Shown in pieces: positions 2,699-19,550 of a DNA stretch of 64,000 nucleotides (its first letter is position 1; every line of letters begins with the position of its first letter). The DNA is from Prauserella aidingensis (lineage in GTDB: Bacteria > Actinomycetota > Actinomycetes > Mycobacteriales > Pseudonocardiaceae): assembly GCF_024171865.1 (NCBI RefSeq), contig NZ_JAMTCN010000009.1, forward strand, positions 1 through 64,000, read 5' to 3'. A program made the position numbers and the translations under genes. The notes beneath the pieces were generated by a model. The model had not been told where the DNA came from, made no database searches, and saw nothing but the letters and a program-made list of their open reading frames with translations.

Positions 2699-3681
2699 CA
2701 CCGCGCGGCTCCGTTTGTGAATCGCGGTCGTGTTGCGTTCTCCTGCCCTGTTGCGACCCGATCTCGCAATGGAATGACCGGCGCCGCCTCGGTGACGGTA
2801 TTGCGCAACTCGCCGAGGCCTTCGATCGCGGCGACGACCTCGTCGCCCGGCTGCAGCCAGGGGTAGGTCGCCGAGTCGTGTGTGCGTGAGAGTTCCAGGA
2901 TGCAGCCGGTGCCGCAGGTGCCGGAGCCGATCACGTCGCCGGGCCTTACTTCGGCACCGCGGGAGGCGTAGGCGATCATCTCGCCGAATGACCAGTGGAT
3001 GTCTGACCACAGGGCGCGGGAGTAAGGGGCGCCGTTGACCGTGCAGGTCATTTCGAGACGGTGTCCATTGCCCTCGCGGAGGTCGGCGATCTCGTCCGGG
3101 GTCACGAAGTACGGGCCGAGGCTCGTCGCGGTGTCCTTGCCTTTCACCGGTCCCATCGACAGCTTCATCTCGCGCTGCTGTACGTCCCGGCCGCTCCAGT
3201 CGTTGAGCACGCAGTAACCGGCGATGGTGTGTTCGGCGTCCTTGGCGGTCAGGTCGCGGCCGCCGCGCCCCACCACGGCAGCGACCTCCAGTTCGAAGTC
3301 GAAACACTCCGCGCCCGGCGTCATCGCCACCGGCCCGCAGCCCAGCACGGCGTAGGGGTTGGAGAAGTAGAAAACCGGCAGCTCATACCAGTCCGGTTCC
3401 ATCTCGAGGCCTCGCCAGGCCCGCCCGGCCCGGACATGCTGTTCGAAGGCGTAGAAGTCGCGGACGGTCGGAGGTGTCGCGATCGGCGACAGGGGAACGA
3501 TGTCCGGCAGCGGCACGGTCGCGCCGCGCCGCAGCGCGGTCCGTCCGGCCGCGAGGAGCTCGGCGTCGCCGGCCTCGATGAGAGGCAGCAGGTCTGCCAC
3601 ACCGTCGACGATCCGGACCAGGTCGCCGTCCACCACGCCGACGCGTGCGGACGGGCCGTCCGCGTAGCGAACGAACTTCAC
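2698..3681 (-). CDS. Fumarylacetoacetate-hydrolase-family protein
   Basis: 327 residues starting MKFVRYADGPSARVG, with the FAH catalytic domain in the C-terminal two thirds. Metal-binding acids are visible in FDFELEVAAVVGRGG and in CVLNDWSGRDVQ; the lysine-containing GPVKGKDTATSLGP and the GSGTCGTGCILEL loop are typical of the family. Members hydrolyse or decarboxylate beta-diketo acids at the end of aromatic catabolism. It overlaps the VOC gene by 4 bp upstream and the alpha/beta-hydrolase start by 1 bp downstream, so the three form one operon. Several FAH subfamilies (acylpyruvase, hydratase, decarboxylase) remain possible. Confidence 0.85.
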   Translation of the reverse strand: MKFVRYADGPSARVGVVDGDLVRIVDGVADLLPLIEAGDAELLAAGRTALRRGATVPLPDIVPLSPIATPPTVRDFYAFEQHVRAGRAWRGLEMEPDWYELPVFYFSNPYAVLGCGPVAMTPGAECFDFELEVAAVVGRGGRDLTAKDAEHTIAGYCVLNDWSGRDVQQREMKLSMGPVKGKDTATSLGPYFVTPDEIADLREGNGHRLEMTCTVNGAPYSRALWSDIHWSFGEMIAYASRGAEVRPGDVIGSGTCGTGCILELSRTHDSATYPWLQPGDEVVAAIEGLGELRNTVTEAAPVIPLRDRVATGQENATRPRFTNGAAR

Positions 3682-4730: not shown

Positions 4731-6316
4731 GCGCGCGCACTGCGGCTCTCGTGCTGTTCACGGTGCTCGTCGTGGTGAGCATGACGCTCACCTGGCTGGC
4801 GGGACGACGGACGAGGACAGCTGGGGACTTCTGGGCGGCCGGCGGGGCGATCAGCCCAGCACGGAACGCGGTCGCGACTCTGGGCGACTTCATGTCCGGT
4901 TCAGCCCTGCTGGGCGTGATCGGGCTGATGTTCCTCTACGGCTACGACGCGCTGTTCTATCTCACGATTCCGCTCCTGGCCTGGATTCCGGTGATGCTGC
5001 TGATCGCTGAACGGCTGCGCAACCTCGGCCAGTACACACTGACCGATGTCCTCGTTCGCCGCTTCCGGTCCAGATCACTCCGGAGCGTTCTGGCGATCTC
5101 GACGCTCGTGATCTCCGGTATCTATCTTCTGGCCCAGATGGTCGTAATCGGGAACCTCTTCGCATTGCTATCAGGGATCGACTACACCGTCGCAATCGTG
5201 CTCGCCGGCGTGATCATGGTGCTGTACGTCGCCATCGGCGGGATGCACGGCGCGACGGTCATCCAGTCGGTGAAGGCTGTCCTGCTGCTGGCCGTGCTCG
5301 CCGGTATGACCGTGCTGCTGGTGATCAAGTTCGGCGGCGACATCGGCGGAATGGTGGCCAAGGCGGTGGCCCCGGCCGGCGGGACGGATCCCCTCCAACC
5401 CGGCAATCTACTGAAGGATCCCTGGAACATGCTGTCGGTCGGACTCGCCGCGACCTTCGGCGTTGCGGGCCTGCCTCATCTAATGATGCGGTTCTTCACC
5501 GTCCGGGACGCGGTCCACGCGAGGCGTTCGGTCACCATGACGGTCGCGATGATCACCGTTGCGAGCATTCTCATCGCCTTCATCGGGCTCGGCGCAAGCG
5601 CCCTCCTGCGGCCGGAAACGAGGGAACTCGCCGCCTCCGGCGGAAACCTGGTCACCCCTCGGCTCGCGGAGGTACTCGGAGGCGGCTCCGGTACCTTCGG
5701 CGGCGCCGTGACGCTCGGCATCGTGTCCGCGATCGCCTTCGCCACGGTCGTCGCCGTGGTGTCCGGGCTGCTGGTCAACGCCTCGAGCGCGGTGGTGCGC
5801 GACCTCTGGAACCAGTTCGATCGTCCCGGCCCACCCGATCGCGAAGTCGCTCGCGGACGTCTCACCTCGGTGGTGATCGGGGCCGTTGTCGTCGTGATCG
5901 CTGCGGTGCTCGGACCGCGTTACAACGCGGCCGTTCTCGTCACGCTGGCTTTCGGGATCGCGGCAAGTGCCAATTTCCCGGTTCTGCTGTTCGCGCTCAC
6001 GTGGCGTCGGTTCACCACATCGGGAGCCGTCACCGGCGTCCTTTCCGGACTGGGCGCCTCGGTCATGCTGATGATCCTCGGCCCAACCCTGTGGCCTGGC
6101 GCCGATCCCCCGGTCAACCTCGCCGACCCGACTCTGATCGCCCTGCCTGTGGGCGTACTCGGCTGCGTCATCGGGACACTGCTGTCCCGCCGGTCGGCAC
6201 GTGAGGAGTTCGACGAGGTTCAGATCGAGTCCGAACTCGGCAGAGCAACCATCGCGAACGTCACCGGCGAACGAATCGCCGGTGAGTCCGGCACCCCCAA
6301 CACGGCCGCGAACTGA
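4727..6316 (+). CDS. Sodium:solute symporter (SSS family, ActP-like)
   Basis: 529 residues with about 13 membrane spans. It begins MSARTAALVLFTVLVVVSM, and the ATG overlaps the preceding stop by 4 bp. The early segment RTAGDFWAAGGAISPARNA followed by GDFMSGSALLGVIGL is the conserved substrate/sodium region of the SSS family, and TFGVAGLPHLMMRFFTV is typical of the acetate/pyruvate-type branch. It should import a small carboxylate with sodium. Its position opposite the VOC-FAH-hydrolase operon and upstream of the IclR gene suggests it brings in the substrate of that pathway. The substrate itself is not deducible. Confidence 0.9.
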   Translation: MSARTAALVLFTVLVVVSMTLTWLAGRRTRTAGDFWAAGGAISPARNAVATLGDFMSGSALLGVIGLMFLYGYDALFYLTIPLLAWIPVMLLIAERLRNLGQYTLTDVLVRRFRSRSLRSVLAISTLVISGIYLLAQMVVIGNLFALLSGIDYTVAIVLAGVIMVLYVAIGGMHGATVIQSVKAVLLLAVLAGMTVLLVIKFGGDIGGMVAKAVAPAGGTDPLQPGNLLKDPWNMLSVGLAATFGVAGLPHLMMRFFTVRDAVHARRSVTMTVAMITVASILIAFIGLGASALLRPETRELAASGGNLVTPRLAEVLGGGSGTFGGAVTLGIVSAIAFATVVAVVSGLLVNASSAVVRDLWNQFDRPGPPDREVARGRLTSVVIGAVVVVIAAVLGPRYNAAVLVTLAFGIAASANFPVLLFALTWRRFTTSGAVTGVLSGLGASVMLMILGPTLWPGADPPVNLADPTLIALPVGVLGCVIGTLLSRRSAREEFDEVQIESELGRATIANVTGERIAGESGTPNTAAN

Positions 6317-6425: not shown

Positions 6426-7184
6426 GTGACAGTGCCGGCCGCCTACCCGGTGGAATCGATCGACAACGCCGCGCGGATCCTGCTGATGCTGGCGGACAAT
6501 CCGTCGTTGCGAGTTGCCGACGTGTCCGCCGAGCTGGGGGTGGCCAGGTCGACCGCTCATCGGATGCTGACCACCCTGCAGGCCCGCGACCTGATTCGCC
6601 AGGACGCCCAGACCAAGGGCTACGGACCTGGGCCCGCCCTGGCCAGGCTCGGTATCGCCGTCATGGGGGCAGTCGCCCTCCGCGACGAAGCGCGTCCCGT
6701 GCTGGAAAAGCTCGTGGCAGACACCTCGGAGACGGCACATCTGCTCGTACTGGAAGGCACCGAGACCGTCTTCGTCGAAGGTGCGGAGAGCCAGCAGGTG
6801 ATCCGTGCCGGGGTGCGTACCGGGCAGCGAGGTCCGGCGCACGCGTCCGCCGCAGGAAAAGCTCTGCTCGCCGAGCTTTCCCGCGACGAGTTGCGGCGCC
6901 GCTATCCGGGAGCGCGGCTGCGAGGCGGAACCGAGCGCGCAGTGAGCACACGTCGGGCGCTCGAGACCGAGCTCGAGAGGGTAAGGGAGACCGGCTACGC
7001 CACCAACACTGAGGAAAGCGAATTCGACCTCTGCGCGGTGGCCGCCACGGTACGGAACCGGCAGGGCGTGGCCTGCGGTGCGCTGTCTGTATCCGGCCCT
7101 GCGCGGCGGGCCGAGGCCAAACTAGCCCTCCTCAGCAGCGCTGTCGTCGCCGCCGCCACCGAGCTCGGTGCGCGGCTCAGTTAA
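6426..7184 (+). CDS. IclR-family transcriptional regulator of the catabolic block
   Basis: 252 residues. The N-terminal winged HTH is at ~10-70 (SIDNAARILLMLADNP, VSAELGVARSTAHRMLTTL). The C-terminal effector domain (~80-250) has the family's GRAGVRTGQRGPAHASAAGKALLA-like core and a conserved Cys region (FDLCAVAATV). The GTG start at 6426 is preceded by GGAGGGG. IclR proteins usually sense an aromatic or small carboxylic acid and control adjacent catabolic and transport genes. The repeated ACAGAACATCGTC motif at both neighbouring promoters is its likely target. The 3' end overlaps the convergent CMD-family gene by 4 bp. Confidence 0.9.
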   Translation: MTVPAAYPVESIDNAARILLMLADNPSLRVADVSAELGVARSTAHRMLTTLQARDLIRQDAQTKGYGPGPALARLGIAVMGAVALRDEARPVLEKLVADTSETAHLLVLEGTETVFVEGAESQQVIRAGVRTGQRGPAHASAAGKALLAELSRDELRRRYPGARLRGGTERAVSTRRALETELERVRETGYATNTEESEFDLCAVAATVRNRQGVACGALSVSGPARRAEAKLALLSSAVVAAATELGARLS

Positions 7185-7780
7185 GGCGCAGGCTGAGCGC
7201 GTCCGTTCTCCGGCCCGTGTTCATGATCACTTCGCGGGGACTGGCCGAGGAGACTCATTGTGTGGGCCAAAAGCCGGTAGTAACCCGTGATGACGGCGAC
7301 TTCATAGATCGTCTGCCGGTCGAGCCGGGTCGCAGCTGACGTGATGGCGTGGTCGGCCGGCTGAGGGGAACTCACTAGATGCCGGGTGAGCTCGACGACG
7401 ACCTGCTCACGACTGGTGAGTGTGGCCGTTTCGTTGTTTCTGAGCGCGTCGAATATGTCTTCACCGAGACCACAGGTCCGGCCAATGGCTTCGTGCGCGG
7501 CCTGTTCGAATTGGCTTCCGGTCACGTACGCCACGGTGAGGACGGCGATTTCTCGTTCGCGGTCGGAGAGCGTCGTTCGAAACCGGACTGCGGCACCGAG
7601 AGCTTGAAGCGGTCCGCCAACCTCAGGGTACTCGACCATGAGTCCGAACGGTCCACGGAGCGTCCCGTCCAGATTCCGCAACTCGAAGTGCTGCGGACCG
7701 CGCGCTCGCGGACCATAAAGAATAGCGTCATATACCGCACGCTGCTCGTCCGTCATCTCGGACGCGAACTGATCTTGCAC
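7181..7780 (-). CDS. Carboxymuconolactone-decarboxylase-family protein
   Basis: 199 residues with the AhpD/CMD helical fold. The core reads LSDREREIAVLTVAYVTGSQFEQAAHEAIGRTCGL, in which the Glu and His (EQAAHE) occupy the usual active-site positions. The CxxC pair of AhpD-type peroxidases is absent, so a decarboxylase- or isomerase-like or unknown role is more likely than peroxidase. It has a GTG start at 7780 with AAGGAG about 10 bp upstream. It is convergent with the IclR gene and probably part of the same catabolic block. Confidence 0.8.
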   Translation of the reverse strand: MQDQFASEMTDEQRAVYDAILYGPRARGPQHFELRNLDGTLRGPFGLMVEYPEVGGPLQALGAAVRFRTTLSDREREIAVLTVAYVTGSQFEQAAHEAIGRTCGLGEDIFDALRNNETATLTSREQVVVELTRHLVSSPQPADHAITSAATRLDRQTIYEVAVITGYYRLLAHTMSLLGQSPRSDHEHGPENGRAQPAP

Positions 7781-7984
7781 AGTCTGAGCTCCTTACCTCG
7801 GGCGAATCGGTCGCCTGCCGACGCCGCGTGCGCGCAGACGCAGACCAGGCCGATCTCGGCCAACACCGTCCTCGGCCGAGTGCCATTATGAGAGTCGCAG
7901 CTACGGTGTCCGGCCGGGTCCCTGCCTCAGTGAGTCGGTCTGGGACGCGGCGCCGATGGTGCCACCAACTCATTATCCCAGGCC

Positions 7985-8285
7985 GCCAGCCCGATCCGGA
8001 CATTCGGCAATGTGGGCCGCCGACGAAGTGCCAGTTGAACTGGTCCTTTTCCGACGGCCCTTCCCGAACCAGCTGTGCCCGATTTCCGCAACAGCTGACT
8101 CTCCAGCGCTCGTCATGATTGCCGTGTTGGATACTCGCGGTAGTGGATGTCCTCGTGGCAGGTGCCGACAGACGACCAGGGTCTTGCGGCGGCGAGCAGC
8201 CATTCACATGACCACGCAGATTACGGTCCCCGCCCCTTCGGCGGTTGAGATCCTTCAGCGCCCGGATCTGATGCACTTCGGCATA
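7985..8285 (-). pseudogene. 3' remnant of a group II intron (maturase C-terminus plus RNA domains)
   Basis: On the minus strand, fragments of the C-terminus of a group II intron reverse transcriptase/maturase appear in order but in different frames. They are EVHQIRALKDLNRR (about 8284-8240), AARRRKTLVVCRH (about 8202-8165) and CHEDIHYREYPTRQS followed by TGA (about 8160-8112). These match the HNH-type tail of actinobacterial intron-encoded proteins. The downstream sequence (GCACAGCTGGTTCGGGAAGG, then GGAAAAGGACC, then TCGTCGGCGGCCCA) resembles the conserved 3' RNA domains of such introns. At least two frameshifts show that it is dead, and the 5' part is missing. The rest of 7781-8518 holds no intact gene. 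Confidence 0.6.
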
Positions 8286-16255: not shown

Positions 16256-17050
16256 TCAGCTGTAGAGCGACCGCTCCGGCCGGGCGGGCAGCCGATCGGC
16301 GAGTTCGGGATCGTCCTTGTAGTGCAGACCGAGGTTGACGGCCTCGCGGATCTGCTGCCGGTTCTCGCGCACCACCTCGGCGAAGAAGTGGTCGATGCGA
16401 TCGTCGGCGAGCACTTCGAGCACGATGCGGATCACGGTGTCGGTCACCGAGTGGACGATCTCGTCGTGGAACGGCAGCCGCGAGAACCGGCCGGCCTGCG
16501 GATCGTTCTTGAGTTTCTCGGTGACGATCTCGCGCAGCATCTCCTGGTTCTGCGACAGCGATCGTGCCAGGTTCTCCGGGTAGTTGCCGGTCTCGAGGAC
16601 CTTCACCACCTCGTCGAGCACGACGACCGTCACGGGTTTCTTGATGGCCTGCACGATCGTCGTCGAGTAGCGCTCGACGAGCTTCTGCGTGAACCGTTCC
16701 CCGAAGGCGCGATCCGCGGTGCGCGCGAGTCGCACGACCACGACGACGATGCGGAGCAGGCGGAACCCGCGCAGGGCCGGGTGGGCGATCGGGATCATGC
16801 CCAGGATCTCGTACCAGCCGCGGAGCGGGAACATCTTCTCCCAGCCCGCCTTGTGCCACCGCCACAGGAACTCGACGAGGAACACGCCGCAGATGGCCGT
16901 GTCGACGACGAAGATCGTGTGCGCGGTCTCCTCCGAGACGTCGAAGAACATCAGGTAGCACAGCAGCGCCACCGAGCCGACGGCGAGCACGAGCATCGCC
17001 AGGTCGACGAGGCTCGGCCTGCGCCCGGCCCGCGGCGTTCCGGTGGTCAT
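16256..17050 (-). CDS. Voltage-sensor-like ion-transport domain protein without visible pore
   Basis: 264 residues. Three or four membrane segments (about 14-36, 47-65, 80-100, 100-112) are followed by a long soluble tail. The fourth segment, FRLLRIVVVVVRLARTADR, has spaced arginines like an S4 voltage sensor, and the preceding spans carry acidic residues (DTAICGVFLVEFLWRW). There is no selectivity-filter motif and no S5-S6 pair, so it is a voltage-sensing domain protein or 'ion transporter' of unknown activity. The tail (about 130-264) is helical and charged. ATG 17050 is chosen; a GTG six codons earlier is possible. It is convergent with hrpB. Confidence 0.7.
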   Translation of the reverse strand: MTTGTPRAGRRPSLVDLAMLVLAVGSVALLCYLMFFDVSEETAHTIFVVDTAICGVFLVEFLWRWHKAGWEKMFPLRGWYEILGMIPIAHPALRGFRLLRIVVVVVRLARTADRAFGERFTQKLVERYSTTIVQAIKKPVTVVVLDEVVKVLETGNYPENLARSLSQNQEMLREIVTEKLKNDPQAGRFSRLPFHDEIVHSVTDTVIRIVLEVLADDRIDHFFAEVVRENRQQIREAVNLGLHYKDDPELADRLPARPERSLYS

Positions 17051-17133
17051 GGGCGCACATTGTGCCACCTGTGATCACTCACACGCGTCCAGCGCGGCGA
17101 TCACCCTCCGCAGCCGGCCTGTGCCGACGATCG

Positions 17134-17194
17134 GGTCGTCGTCGCCCGGATGAACGACAGCACCTGGGGTTGTGACACGGCGTAGGCGGCCTCG
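17134..17194. repeat. 61-bp direct repeat, copy 1 (displaced 3' end of dienelactone hydrolase gene)
   Basis: Identical at 60 of 61 positions to 18793-18853; the only difference is t17173 versus c18832. On the minus strand it encodes the last residues of the dienelactone hydrolase (AAYAVSQPQVLSFIRATT) without the rest of that gene. Its frame continues past the equivalent stop for about ten codons to a TGA at 17101-17103. It marks one border of the AbiE cassette. Confidence 0.95.
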
Positions 17195-17250
17195 GGCAGC
17201 GGCGTTCTCATGTCCGAATCCGTGCCCGTCAGAATCCGTGCCGGTCCGAA

Positions 17251-18149
17251 TCACTCCCGACCGAGTTCCGTCCACTGCTGCGCTGCGGGAGTCCACGTTC
17301 CGGCCGAAACGTCACGACTGAGGACGGGATCGAGCATGGAGCTCACGGTTCGGTGGGCCGCATCGAGATCGTCGTCGAGCCCGACGGTCCGGGCGAGCTG
17401 GCGAAACGGCACGCGCCACAGTTCCGGCGGCGCAGGCACAGCACGTAGAGGGTCGTGCGTACCGCGCGCCGAGAAGATCGTCTCCACGGCTCGCAGCAGC
17501 TGCTGGGCGTCGAGTGTGAAGGCCTGCGCGATGAGGGCAAGATCAACGAGGTCCTTGGCCCGGCTACTCGTCCGGCCGCCGTCGTAACCCGGGTACACGC
17601 GTGCAGTTTTTCCGCCACGTGGACAGCGAGCGGGATGACCGGCACTTCGACCGGCGCGATATCGGCGAAACCCAGCACCCGGGGTGTCGTCAGGATCGCG
17701 GCTTCCAGGTGCCGGATATCGTCAGGCCGTCCGACGTCGACAACGAACTTCTCGAACGGGCGACCGGCCAGGCTCGCCGTGACCCGGAACCGATGGGCAC
17801 CGCCGAACCTGTCGGGCACGTCGCCGGACCGCTCGACGGCGAAACCGAAGAAGTCGCCACGGTCCTCACCGGCCGCATCGATGAGGACCTCAAGCAGGTC
17901 TTCCCCGTCGACCCAGCATGCCAGGTCGACGTCTTTCGTCGACCTGGCCCGGTCGTTCAACCTCAGATCGAGCGCAAACCCACCCTTGAGTGCCCATTCT
18001 GCGTCCGCGACCTCGACGAGACGAGCCAGAAAGCGGTCGAACGCCAGGCGCTTGCGATCTCTCGTGATACGCCCGCCGTCACCGTCCGCGCGCGCCTTCA
18101 GCCGATCCTCCAGTGCGCGGCGAAAGGCCGGACCGGTCGAATACCTCAC
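17251..18149 (-). pseudogene. AbiEii-type nucleotidyltransferase toxin, frameshifted
   Basis: The N-terminal part (from 18149) has the AbiEii nucleotidyltransferase signature WALKGGFALDLRL and RSTKDVDLA, then VIPLAVHVAEKLHAC. The expected continuation, YDGGRTSSRAKDLVDLALIA, is in another frame that ends at 17251. The two halves join at about 17594-17600, so the gene carries one indel near the conserved KLHAY position. With the shift repaired the product is about 298 residues, normal for the family. AbiEii acts as the toxin of a type IV pair and modifies RNA acceptor ends in studied cases. The gene is either inactivated here or has a sequencing error; the ATG overlaps the antitoxin stop by 4 bp. 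Confidence 0.8.
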
Positions 18150-18748
18150 GCGTCCACCCGCCCCGTCGTAGCATCGACGAACTCGCGCACGCGCTTCGAC
18201 CGGCCGGCGGCGACCTGGCGAAGCCTCCGGCGGGTGGTGAGTCCACGAGCGAGGGCTTGTCGGACGGCCAGCTCAACCTGCTCGGGCTGTTCACCATCGT
18301 TCAGACTATCGACGATGGCACGTTCCGGGCTGGTCACAGCCATTCCCGCTACAGTGCGAACATCCCGAGGGGATAGCGGTTCGCCCTGGGTATGGACCCG
18401 TACTCCCGGCCGCGGCCGCTGTCCGCGGTTGGCACGAGGCACCGACACATGCACCACGTCCGGAATCAGGTCGGACAGCTCGTACAGCTCCAGAGCGCTG
18501 GCATGCGACACGACGGCCTGCGCGGACCTCAGCGGGAGCCACGCCGCCACGAGGTGTTCGACCGGACTCGACGGGAAACGCCGAAACCGGTACAAGCCCC
18601 GGCGCACGCGTTCGTACTGGCCTCCGGGTCGCGCGTGATGACTCAGCGTGCTCAGGTCCATCCCCACGTCCCGTGCCTGACCGGACGTGAAGTAGCCGGC
18701 CTGCGATTCCGCTACGCGGTACAGCTGATCATGATCCACGTCCGACAC
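18146..18748 (-). CDS. AbiEi-type antitoxin / transcriptional regulator
   Basis: 200 residues. The N-terminal winged helix (about 1-60: YRVAESQAGYFTSGQARDVG, YERVRRGLYRF) resembles AbiEi_4-type domains. The C-terminal part has AAWLPLRSAQAVVSHASALELYELSD, VHVSVPR and VTSPERAIVDSL, all typical of AbiEi antitoxins. It would neutralise AbiEii and repress its own promoter. The GTG start at 18748 overlaps one arm of an inverted repeat (18741-18777), a natural autoregulatory site. It is co-transcribed with the toxin gene (4-bp overlap). Confidence 0.85.
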   Translation of the reverse strand: MSDVDHDQLYRVAESQAGYFTSGQARDVGMDLSTLSHHARPGGQYERVRRGLYRFRRFPSSPVEHLVAAWLPLRSAQAVVSHASALELYELSDLIPDVVHVSVPRANRGQRPRPGVRVHTQGEPLSPRDVRTVAGMAVTSPERAIVDSLNDGEQPEQVELAVRQALARGLTTRRRLRQVAAGRSKRVREFVDATTGRVDA

Positions 18749-18777
18749 AACCGTGATACTATCCCATCAACGTCGGA
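18741..18777 (-). promoter_or_regulatory. Inverted-repeat operator/promoter of the AbiE pair
   Basis: TCCGAC (18741-18746) and GTCGGA (18772-18777) form an inverted repeat with a 25-bp AT-richer spacer that includes GATACTATC (-10-like TAGTAT on the minus strand). AbiEi proteins are known to bind inverted repeats at their own promoters. Because the inner arm overlaps the start codon, the message is probably leaderless or has a very short leader. Confidence 0.5.
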
Positions 18778-18789
18778 CACACTTCCCAG

Positions 18790-19503
18790 TCAGGTCGTCG
18801 TCGCCCGGATGAACGACAGCACCTGGGGTTGCGACACGGCGTAGGCGGCCTCGTTGACCTCGGCGCCGTGACTGCGGGTGTCGCTGAAGCCGTGGTGCGC
18901 CTCGGGGTACAGGTGGACGATGCTGGCCGCACCGGTGCGCGACTGCAGACCGTCCTGCAGCTTGGTGAACACCTCGTGCGGAACGATCGTGTCCTGCCCC
19001 GGGTAGAGCATCATCACCGGCGCGGCGATCCGCGGGGTCTCCTCGAACGGGTCGACCGTGTGGTTGTCCGCGGGCGTGGCGGGCACCGTCGGGTGATAGG
19101 CGACGACGTTGGCGAGCCGCTCGTCCCGCGCCCCCAGCAACAGTGCGAACCGACCGCCGAGGCAGTACCCGATCACACCCACCTTCTCCAGGCCGAGCTC
19201 GCCGAACATGTGGTCCAGCAGGCGCTGCATCTCGGCCAGGCACGTCTCGTCGTCGAGACCGTGCATCAGCTCGACCATGGTGTCGAGCTCGTGATCGTCC
19301 ATGCTCACGCCGTGGAACGGGTCCCAGCTCAGGGGCGTGACGCCGGATTCGGCGAGCTCGGCCGCGAACTCGCGGACACGCTGTCCGATTCCGGTGATCA
19401 TGGGAAGCAACAGCATCCCGGCGCCCGTCGGCTCGGCAGGCCGCGCCAGATGCGCGCCCAGGCCGCCGACACTGATCGTCGAAGTGTCGATCTCGTCTGC
19501 CAT
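18790..19503 (-). CDS. Dienelactone hydrolase family protein
   Basis: 237 residues with the DLH fold. The catalytic Cys is in VIGYCLGGRFALLLG, Asp in YPGQDTIVP and His in YPEAHHGFSDT. It probably hydrolyses an enol-lactone or another small ester. ATG 19503 is used; a GTG at 19524 is possible, as the GAGGGA ribosome-binding site is 13 bp before the ATG. Its last ~20 codons are duplicated at 17134-17194, showing that the AbiE cassette integrated at this end, so its C-terminus may differ from the ancestral one. Confidence 0.88.
   Translation of the reverse strand: MADEIDTSTISVGGLGAHLARPAEPTGAGMLLLPMITGIGQRVREFAAELAESGVTPLSWDPFHGVSMDDHELDTMVELMHGLDDETCLAEMQRLLDHMFGELGLEKVGVIGYCLGGRFALLLGARDERLANVVAYHPTVPATPADNHTVDPFEETPRIAAPVMMLYPGQDTIVPHEVFTKLQDGLQSRTGAASIVHLYPEAHHGFSDTRSHGAEVNEAAYAVSQPQVLSFIRATTT
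18793..18853. repeat. 61-bp direct repeat, copy 2 (functional 3' end of dienelactone hydrolase gene)
   Basis: This copy forms codons for the final residues of the dienelactone hydrolase and is followed leftwards by its TGA (18792-18790). It matches 17134-17194 at 60 of 61 positions. Identity stops exactly at 18854, where the body of the hydrolase gene continues. Confidence 0.95.
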
Positions 19504-19550
19504 GGGTGCGAAACTATCCCTCACAGCCGCAGCCGCCGCGGAGGGGACCG

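Follow-up and report, generated by a model that had tools for sequence, protein, structure and literature searches.

The first 64,000 nucleotides of contig NZ_JAMTCN010000009.1 of Prauserella aidingensis (assembly GCF_024171865.1), referred to below as the window, carry a minimal AbiE toxin-antitoxin cassette between two direct copies of the 3' end of a dienelactone-hydrolase family gene. The hydrolase gene itself is intact (18790..19524, minus strand; PF01738, E 3.3e-25). Its stop codon occupies 18790-18792, and the last 61 bp ahead of that codon form the attached copy of the repeat (18793..18853, minus strand). The detached copy (17134..17194, minus strand) has no gene body. The two are identical at 60 of 61 positions, and a repeat search extends the match to 17131-17194 against 18790-18853, with 97% identity over 64 nt. 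Between the 61-bp copies lie 1,598 bp (17195..18792) that include the hydrolase stop codon. Past the detached copy comes the next host gene (16256..17068, minus strand), whose 270-aa product has no Pfam match and which directly follows the hydrolase gene in congeners that lack the cassette.

Exact 30-mers are repeated at 10 positions in the window, every one of them from this pair, and no 30-mer is shared with the reverse strand. In the whole genome, the 61-bp segment has two matches, which are the two copies themselves. The original prediction had described near-identical repeats with only AbiEi and AbiEii between them, the right-hand copy being the working end of the hydrolase gene. Repeat search, whole-genome match, and domain searches confirm the first point, and the PF01738 ORF confirms the second; a frameshift in AbiEii had been missed. 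The only tRNA gene of the window lies 8.5 kb from the cassette, and a tRNA-type island at the hydrolase site is rejected.

The AbiEi antitoxin gene (18146..18748, minus strand; 200 aa) is intact and matches both PF13338 (E 1.2e-5) and the PADLOC AbiEi model (E 2e-60). The AbiEii toxin gene (17251..18149, minus strand) is interrupted by the frameshift. Two ORFs in different frames, 17343-18149 and 17251-17598, match positions 1-150 and 151-229 of the PF08843 profile, so that no single frame covers the full-length family; in P. alba AbiEii is intact. With AbiEi intact and AbiEii frameshifted, what is left of the window cassette may be a remnant with the antitoxin alone, unless the frameshift is an assembly error. 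None of the eight other ORFs of the insert has a Pfam match. A 7-bp inverted repeat spans the AbiEi start (18740..18778; arms 18740-18746 and 18772-18778, 25 nt apart) and is a possible AbiEi operator, by analogy with IR1/IR2 in excerpts of PMC3985639. The pair is classed by family as an AbiE type IV toxin-antitoxin system, with toxicity and neutralization predicted only. The insert does not have the form of a composite transposon, as there is no transposase match in the insert or flanking ORFs tested and there are no terminal inverted repeats.

Empty sites in relatives reveal the state of the locus without the cassette. Six congeners were compared: P. alba (G006), P. halophila (G004), P. isguenensis (G003), P. 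salsuginis (G005), P. rugosa (G002), and Saccharomonospora sp. CUA-673 (G001), which is listed as the same genus. All four that are cassette-free have a single hydrolase end with collinear flanks, joined to the gene on the window's left flank. This is the empty arrangement that had been anticipated, one repeat copy followed by the left flank, and none of the four (0/4) has two copies without a cassette or lacks the left flank. Four hydrolase loci of other genera in the family, compared up to the gene end, also have a single end each. By these comparisons the cassette is shown to be an insertion at the hydrolase 3' end that leaves the gene intact, as had been proposed when integration was said to restore that end. 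The right copy and all four cassette-free congeners share one and the same stop codon for the hydrolase. The proposal that the left copy's reading frame, which runs on to a TGA at 17101-17103, marks the ancestral C-terminus is therefore wrong. That frame is a by-product: the stop-codon position of the detached copy is altered, and about 52 bp beyond the stop codon are missing relative to the P. isguenensis empty site. The 61 bp seen in the window are possibly the remainder of a longer original duplication. Past the stop codon of the hydrolase, P. halophila, P. salsuginis, and P. alba (L030, L031, and L032) have a GC-rich inverted repeat that is probably a terminator; none was seen behind either window copy.

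The same gene end carries AbiE in two further species. A PF08843 search of seven genomes of the genus found AbiEii in three, one gene each and all at the hydrolase end (the broken gene of the window gives two matches). P. alba has a related pair, its AbiEi being 87% identical to that of the window at the amino acid level. Over their first 120 bp, its repeat copies agree at 119 positions, indicating a duplication of at least 120 bp; an N/poly-G assembly gap in the attached copy (L032, ~6770-6960) damages the remainder of that copy. P. halophila has a different AbiE type (278 + 308 aa) in the opposite orientation, with 29-34% amino acid identity to the window pair where alignable. The expectation that this gene end would flank other small cargo is thus borne out. 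The P. halophila repeats are 192 bp long and agree with each other at 189 of 192 positions (98.4%), whereas their identity to the same segment in P. isguenensis, P. salsuginis, and P. alba is 74-82%.

Loci of the same anatomy exist in other genera. The cleanest parallel to the window is the pair of sister genomes G238 and G239. In G239 (L207), two 52-bp copies (51/52 identical) of the end of an HD-domain gene (PF01966; glnD-like by our reading), stop codon included, lie upstream of an SRP54/ffh gene. G238 has a single 52-bp copy with nothing inserted, and its flanks are 97.0% identical to those of G239 on both sides; G240, G241, and G022 also have a single glnD-like end. The G239 insert of 1,838 bp holds AbiEii, which lies 13 bp from one junction, and AbiEi (ORF 6988-7902, minus strand, with the gene start inside the ORF; PADLOC AbiEi E 4.4e-92), which fills most of the remainder. 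Three differences from G238 are common to both G239 copies, and a single site distinguishes one copy from the other (51/52, against 48-49/52 to G238).

In G020 (L104), AbiE is flanked by a 43-51-bp segment, the promoter site, that lies upstream of a gene for a class-III aminotransferase and is single in three of three congeners. At this locus an inner 220-bp repeat (5725-5944 and 7788-8007; 99.5%) containing 21-bp tandem units separates the AbiE pair from the outer 51-bp duplication in a nested arrangement. In G648 (L288), the D-Ala-D-Ala ligase (ddl) gene end is doubled around AbiE, with a degraded copy of 88 bp. Its congener G787 likewise has the ddl 3' end doubled around AbiE, with a detached copy of 264-269 bp; the halves of this locus are on different contigs and their order is inferred. 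The ddl end is single in all six cassette-free congeners in which ddl was found; in two of the ten genomes ddl was not matched. The spot behind ddl is variable in content among congeners of G648, with a transporter-like ORF in L309, L310, and L313 and parB within ~170 bp in L312 and L315. In the window, in G239, in G020, and at the ddl sites, the target segment is thus single in relatives and doubled around the insert. The best PADLOC AbiEi models are PDLC02228 for the window, 02231 for P. halophila and G020, 02246 for G239, and 02282 for G648.

A wider survey covered 139 non-Prauserella loci with an AbiEi or AbiEii match (46 + 33 + 20 + 40), which are part of all listed matches; once a slice of the window and two loci from Prauserella are added, the set comprises 142 loci and 1.79 Mb. 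Two repeat scans with slightly different cut-offs were applied, the second also allowing 24 bp at 96%. Direct-repeat pairs 0.8-5 kb apart were detected in nine of the 139 loci and in none of the other 130. Six of the nine pairs enclose AbiEii, compared with 2.4 expected by placement (P 0.006), and without two tRNA loci the proportion is four of seven (P 0.018). Random pivots in the same loci (n = 115) exceeded 100 bits three times, twice with a score of 417, which is the L104 repeat's own score, and once with 123. AbiE lies inside a duplicated host segment that is single in relatives in three clear cases, the G239, G020, and G648 loci described above. In L218 and L270, AbiE lies between tRNA-gene repeats, accompanied in L270 by a phage-integrase gene (PF00589); both are ordinary islands and serve as positive controls of the scan.

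Several other loci were not counted as cases. In L226, AbiE lies between paralogous small genes. In this locus and two more of the same genus (g57; L219 and L221), which come from several species, AbiE lies near duplicate copies (97-258 bp) of a small ORF resembling a membrane-protein gene; these loci may represent an old instance of such an insertion. The repeat of L180, at 89.9%, falls just below the cut-off and belongs to a phage-integrase gene; AbiEii lies there between the end of that gene (PF00589) and a second, 90%-identical copy (3145-3420 and 7684-7959). Also set aside were L189 (74% match), L208 (repeat 6 kb apart, 85%), and, from looser flank scans, L183 (19 bp) and L108 (24 bp). 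The pairs of L115, L127, and L201 do not enclose AbiEii. That of L115 is a 42-bp palindromic element on either side of a 191-aa ORF (633-674 and 1756-1797) and resembles a dispersed repeat; those of L127 and L201 are, by our reading, tandem genes.

The inserts are almost filled by the AbiE pair, with 13 bp remaining beyond AbiEii in G239. No recombinase domain, transposase, or integrase was found among the insert ORFs tested (in P. alba, the AbiE ORFs only), in agreement with the original prediction; the integrase that an integrase-dependent island would carry was not found there. The insert ends have no terminal inverted repeats. Inverted words there measure 5-7 bp in four of five inserts and 12 bp, belonging to the minisatellite, in G020, and words common to the ends of different inserts reach at most 9 bp (six inserts, 60 end pairs). 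The length of the duplication varies (52, 61, at least 120, 192, and 264 bp). Target genes differ across genera; within Prauserella one gene end is used three times.

The repeats themselves bear on where the second copy came from. In G239, P. halophila, and P. alba, the two copies are more alike than they are to the same segment elsewhere. Origin of the duplicate from the host's own target fits G239 and P. halophila. A foreign att copy brought from a donor species is disfavoured as the general case, because the copies in each of these two genomes resemble each other more than they do other genomes' segments; this argument does not extend to the window and G787, whose repeats are compatible with either reading. 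The repeats of the window and of the ddl locus do not discriminate between target duplication and an att island.

The preferred explanation, given roughly even chances, is that a minimal AbiE cassette inserted behind the hydrolase stop codon with a long target duplication. The cassette would have entered just after the stop codon and duplicated its target, with 61 bp recognizable in the window, no less than 120 bp in P. alba, and 192 bp in P. halophila. As the gene end is part of the duplicate, the hydrolase would stay whole, and the other copy would be a remnant. The source may have been a plasmid or other transient replicon, and cells with a captured cassette would be favoured, since loss of AbiE would be costly to them. 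The long duplication could stem from template switching or from the repair of a break with widely staggered ends, rather than from a transposase or integrase, and later recombination between the copies could delete the cassette precisely. AbiE stabilizes plasmids, according to excerpts of PMC3985639, and 100 plasmid records carry relatives of the P. halophila AbiEii, all below 60% identity; judged by genus, at least 87 of these records are actinobacterial. These two lines of evidence make capture from a lost plasmid under selection the preferred account.

Several observations weigh against long target duplication. Within a single genus, one gene end has received three insertions, and the hydrolase-interior repeat edges of all three Prauserella cassettes fall within 11 bp, with differing outer edges; this looks more site-specific than random capture would. 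One variant at repeat position 58 of 61 is present in five of six cassette-linked copies and in none of four empty sites, tracking the cassette and not the species. The window's detached copy is as near to the P. halophila detached copy as to its own partner (60/61 each). Both features hint at common descent or at a gene end carried by the element. The G787 detached copy shares 93.7% identity with the attached end of its own genome and 93.8% with that of G785, so the ddl repeats do not tell self-duplication from import. The anatomy is clear in just three of the 139 other AbiE loci, the background for the repeat survey consists only of the flanks of the same AbiE loci, and the placement test is only moderately strong, giving modest odds. 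Ku was found in five of five Prauserella searched and in G020; it was not found in G239, G238, or G648, and Ku-dependent capture at breaks is rejected as a general route for this reason. Finally, the window AbiEi has partial matches on 12 plasmids only, at less than 60% identity, and no match in a search of phages. The triple use of a gene end with a nearly fixed edge, the window and G787 repeats, the small number of loci, and the moderate test together keep long target duplication at even chances and leave an integrase-less island as a strong rival, possible although less likely.

Gene 3' ends are classic att sites, and integrase-dependent genomic islands at such ends leave integrase-less remnants, termed CIME-like. 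A non-autonomous, site-specific island would have used an integrase acting in trans or since lost. A circular element would have recombined at the gene end, the repeats would be attL and attR, and the element would have supplied the functional end. The near-fixed interior edge with variable downstream extent suits such an island, as does AbiE between tRNA-gene repeats in L218 and in the integrase-bearing L270, and neither the position-58 variant nor the G787 ddl copies favour self-duplication. However, the inserts are nearly filled by AbiE and their tested ORFs encode no recombinase domain, the repeats of P. halophila and G239 carry their own genome's variants, and repeat length varies at the hydrolase site itself. 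Moreover, the different genes and AbiE types would require different lost integrases. The original prediction of a non-autonomous defence cassette that uses a host gene end as attachment site therefore holds for the insertion at a gene end and for the lack of a recombinase in the ORFs tested, and its att-site part is somewhat less likely.

A single old insertion in the Prauserella ancestor is rather unlikely. Vertical descent would then have ensued, together with gene conversion between the two repeat copies, a cargo swap in P. halophila, and precise losses elsewhere; alternatively, circles may have re-entered within species by homologous recombination. Fourfold-site divergence between the window and P. 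alba is 0.29-0.36 for AbiE and 0.28-0.35 for three neighbouring genes, which fits vertical descent, and the position-58 variant is held in common. Yet insert sequence outside the AbiE operon aligns poorly between the window and P. alba, and P. isguenensis, nearest to the window of five congeners compared (fourfold difference 0.15-0.18, three genes; CUA-673 was outside the comparison), has no cassette and an intact terminator region. Both observations fit separate insertions, and a single old insertion would leave the first duplication and the other loci unexplained. Short tandem duplications are common in bacteria, and the hydrolase end might have been duplicated before AbiE landed between the copies. 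This order of events is disfavoured and improbable: two copies without a cassette were found at none of four hydrolase, four glnD-like, three promoter, and six ddl sites. Chance or an assembly artefact, to which the N/poly-G stretch in the P. alba attached copy might point, is highly improbable, given that the pair accounts for the sole repeated 30-mers of the window and that the same anatomy recurs in other assemblies.

Insertion of the kind favoured here is already known. Nobusato (2000) and Furuta (2010) are said to be the primary works on restriction-modification insertion with long target duplication. Excerpts of PMC3874152 (also PMC3031569 and PMC4978471) describe restriction-modification systems that insert with a long, variable target duplication on the order of 100 bp. 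According to the excerpts of PMC3031569, a non-replicating restriction-modification plasmid was captured by the chromosome, mostly with insertion-sequence help, and a like route is suggested there for other post-segregational systems. As far as these excerpts go, the AbiE insertions are similar in being small selfish units with no mobile element and a long, variable target duplication. They differ in that the cargo is a type IV toxin-antitoxin, three of four loci are at protein-gene 3' ends, and the hosts are actinobacterial.

The window cassette resembles the AbiE type IV, abortive infection system in its AbiEi and AbiEii families, overlapping gene pair, and promoter inverted repeat, but its AbiEii is frameshifted. 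A search by term of the available text of PMC3985639, a paper on AbiE, found no mention of direct repeats, and no report of AbiE with a long target duplication was among the literature matches listed. Gene-end islands also have direct repeats that represent the gene 3' end and restore the gene, and AbiE is their cargo in L218 and L270. In contrast, no integrase or further genes were found here, and insertions at a single site differ in repeat length. That a toxin-antitoxin family should use such insertion at gene ends appears to be new.

How toxin-antitoxin and defence genes move without an attached mobile element is the open question that these loci address, and the before-and-after pairs (G238/G239 and Prauserella) give exact junctions. 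A speculative and doubtful generalization is that AbiE cassettes are minimal mobile units, an antitoxin plus a polymerase-beta-type nucleotidyltransferase, that enter core-gene 3' ends and duplicate 50-260 bp so that the host gene survives. Their insertion may depend on AbiE itself or on death of non-capturing cells. Long target duplication at these loci would extend this mode of insertion from restriction-modification systems to a toxin-antitoxin family and would explain how such cassettes come to sit harmlessly at core genes.

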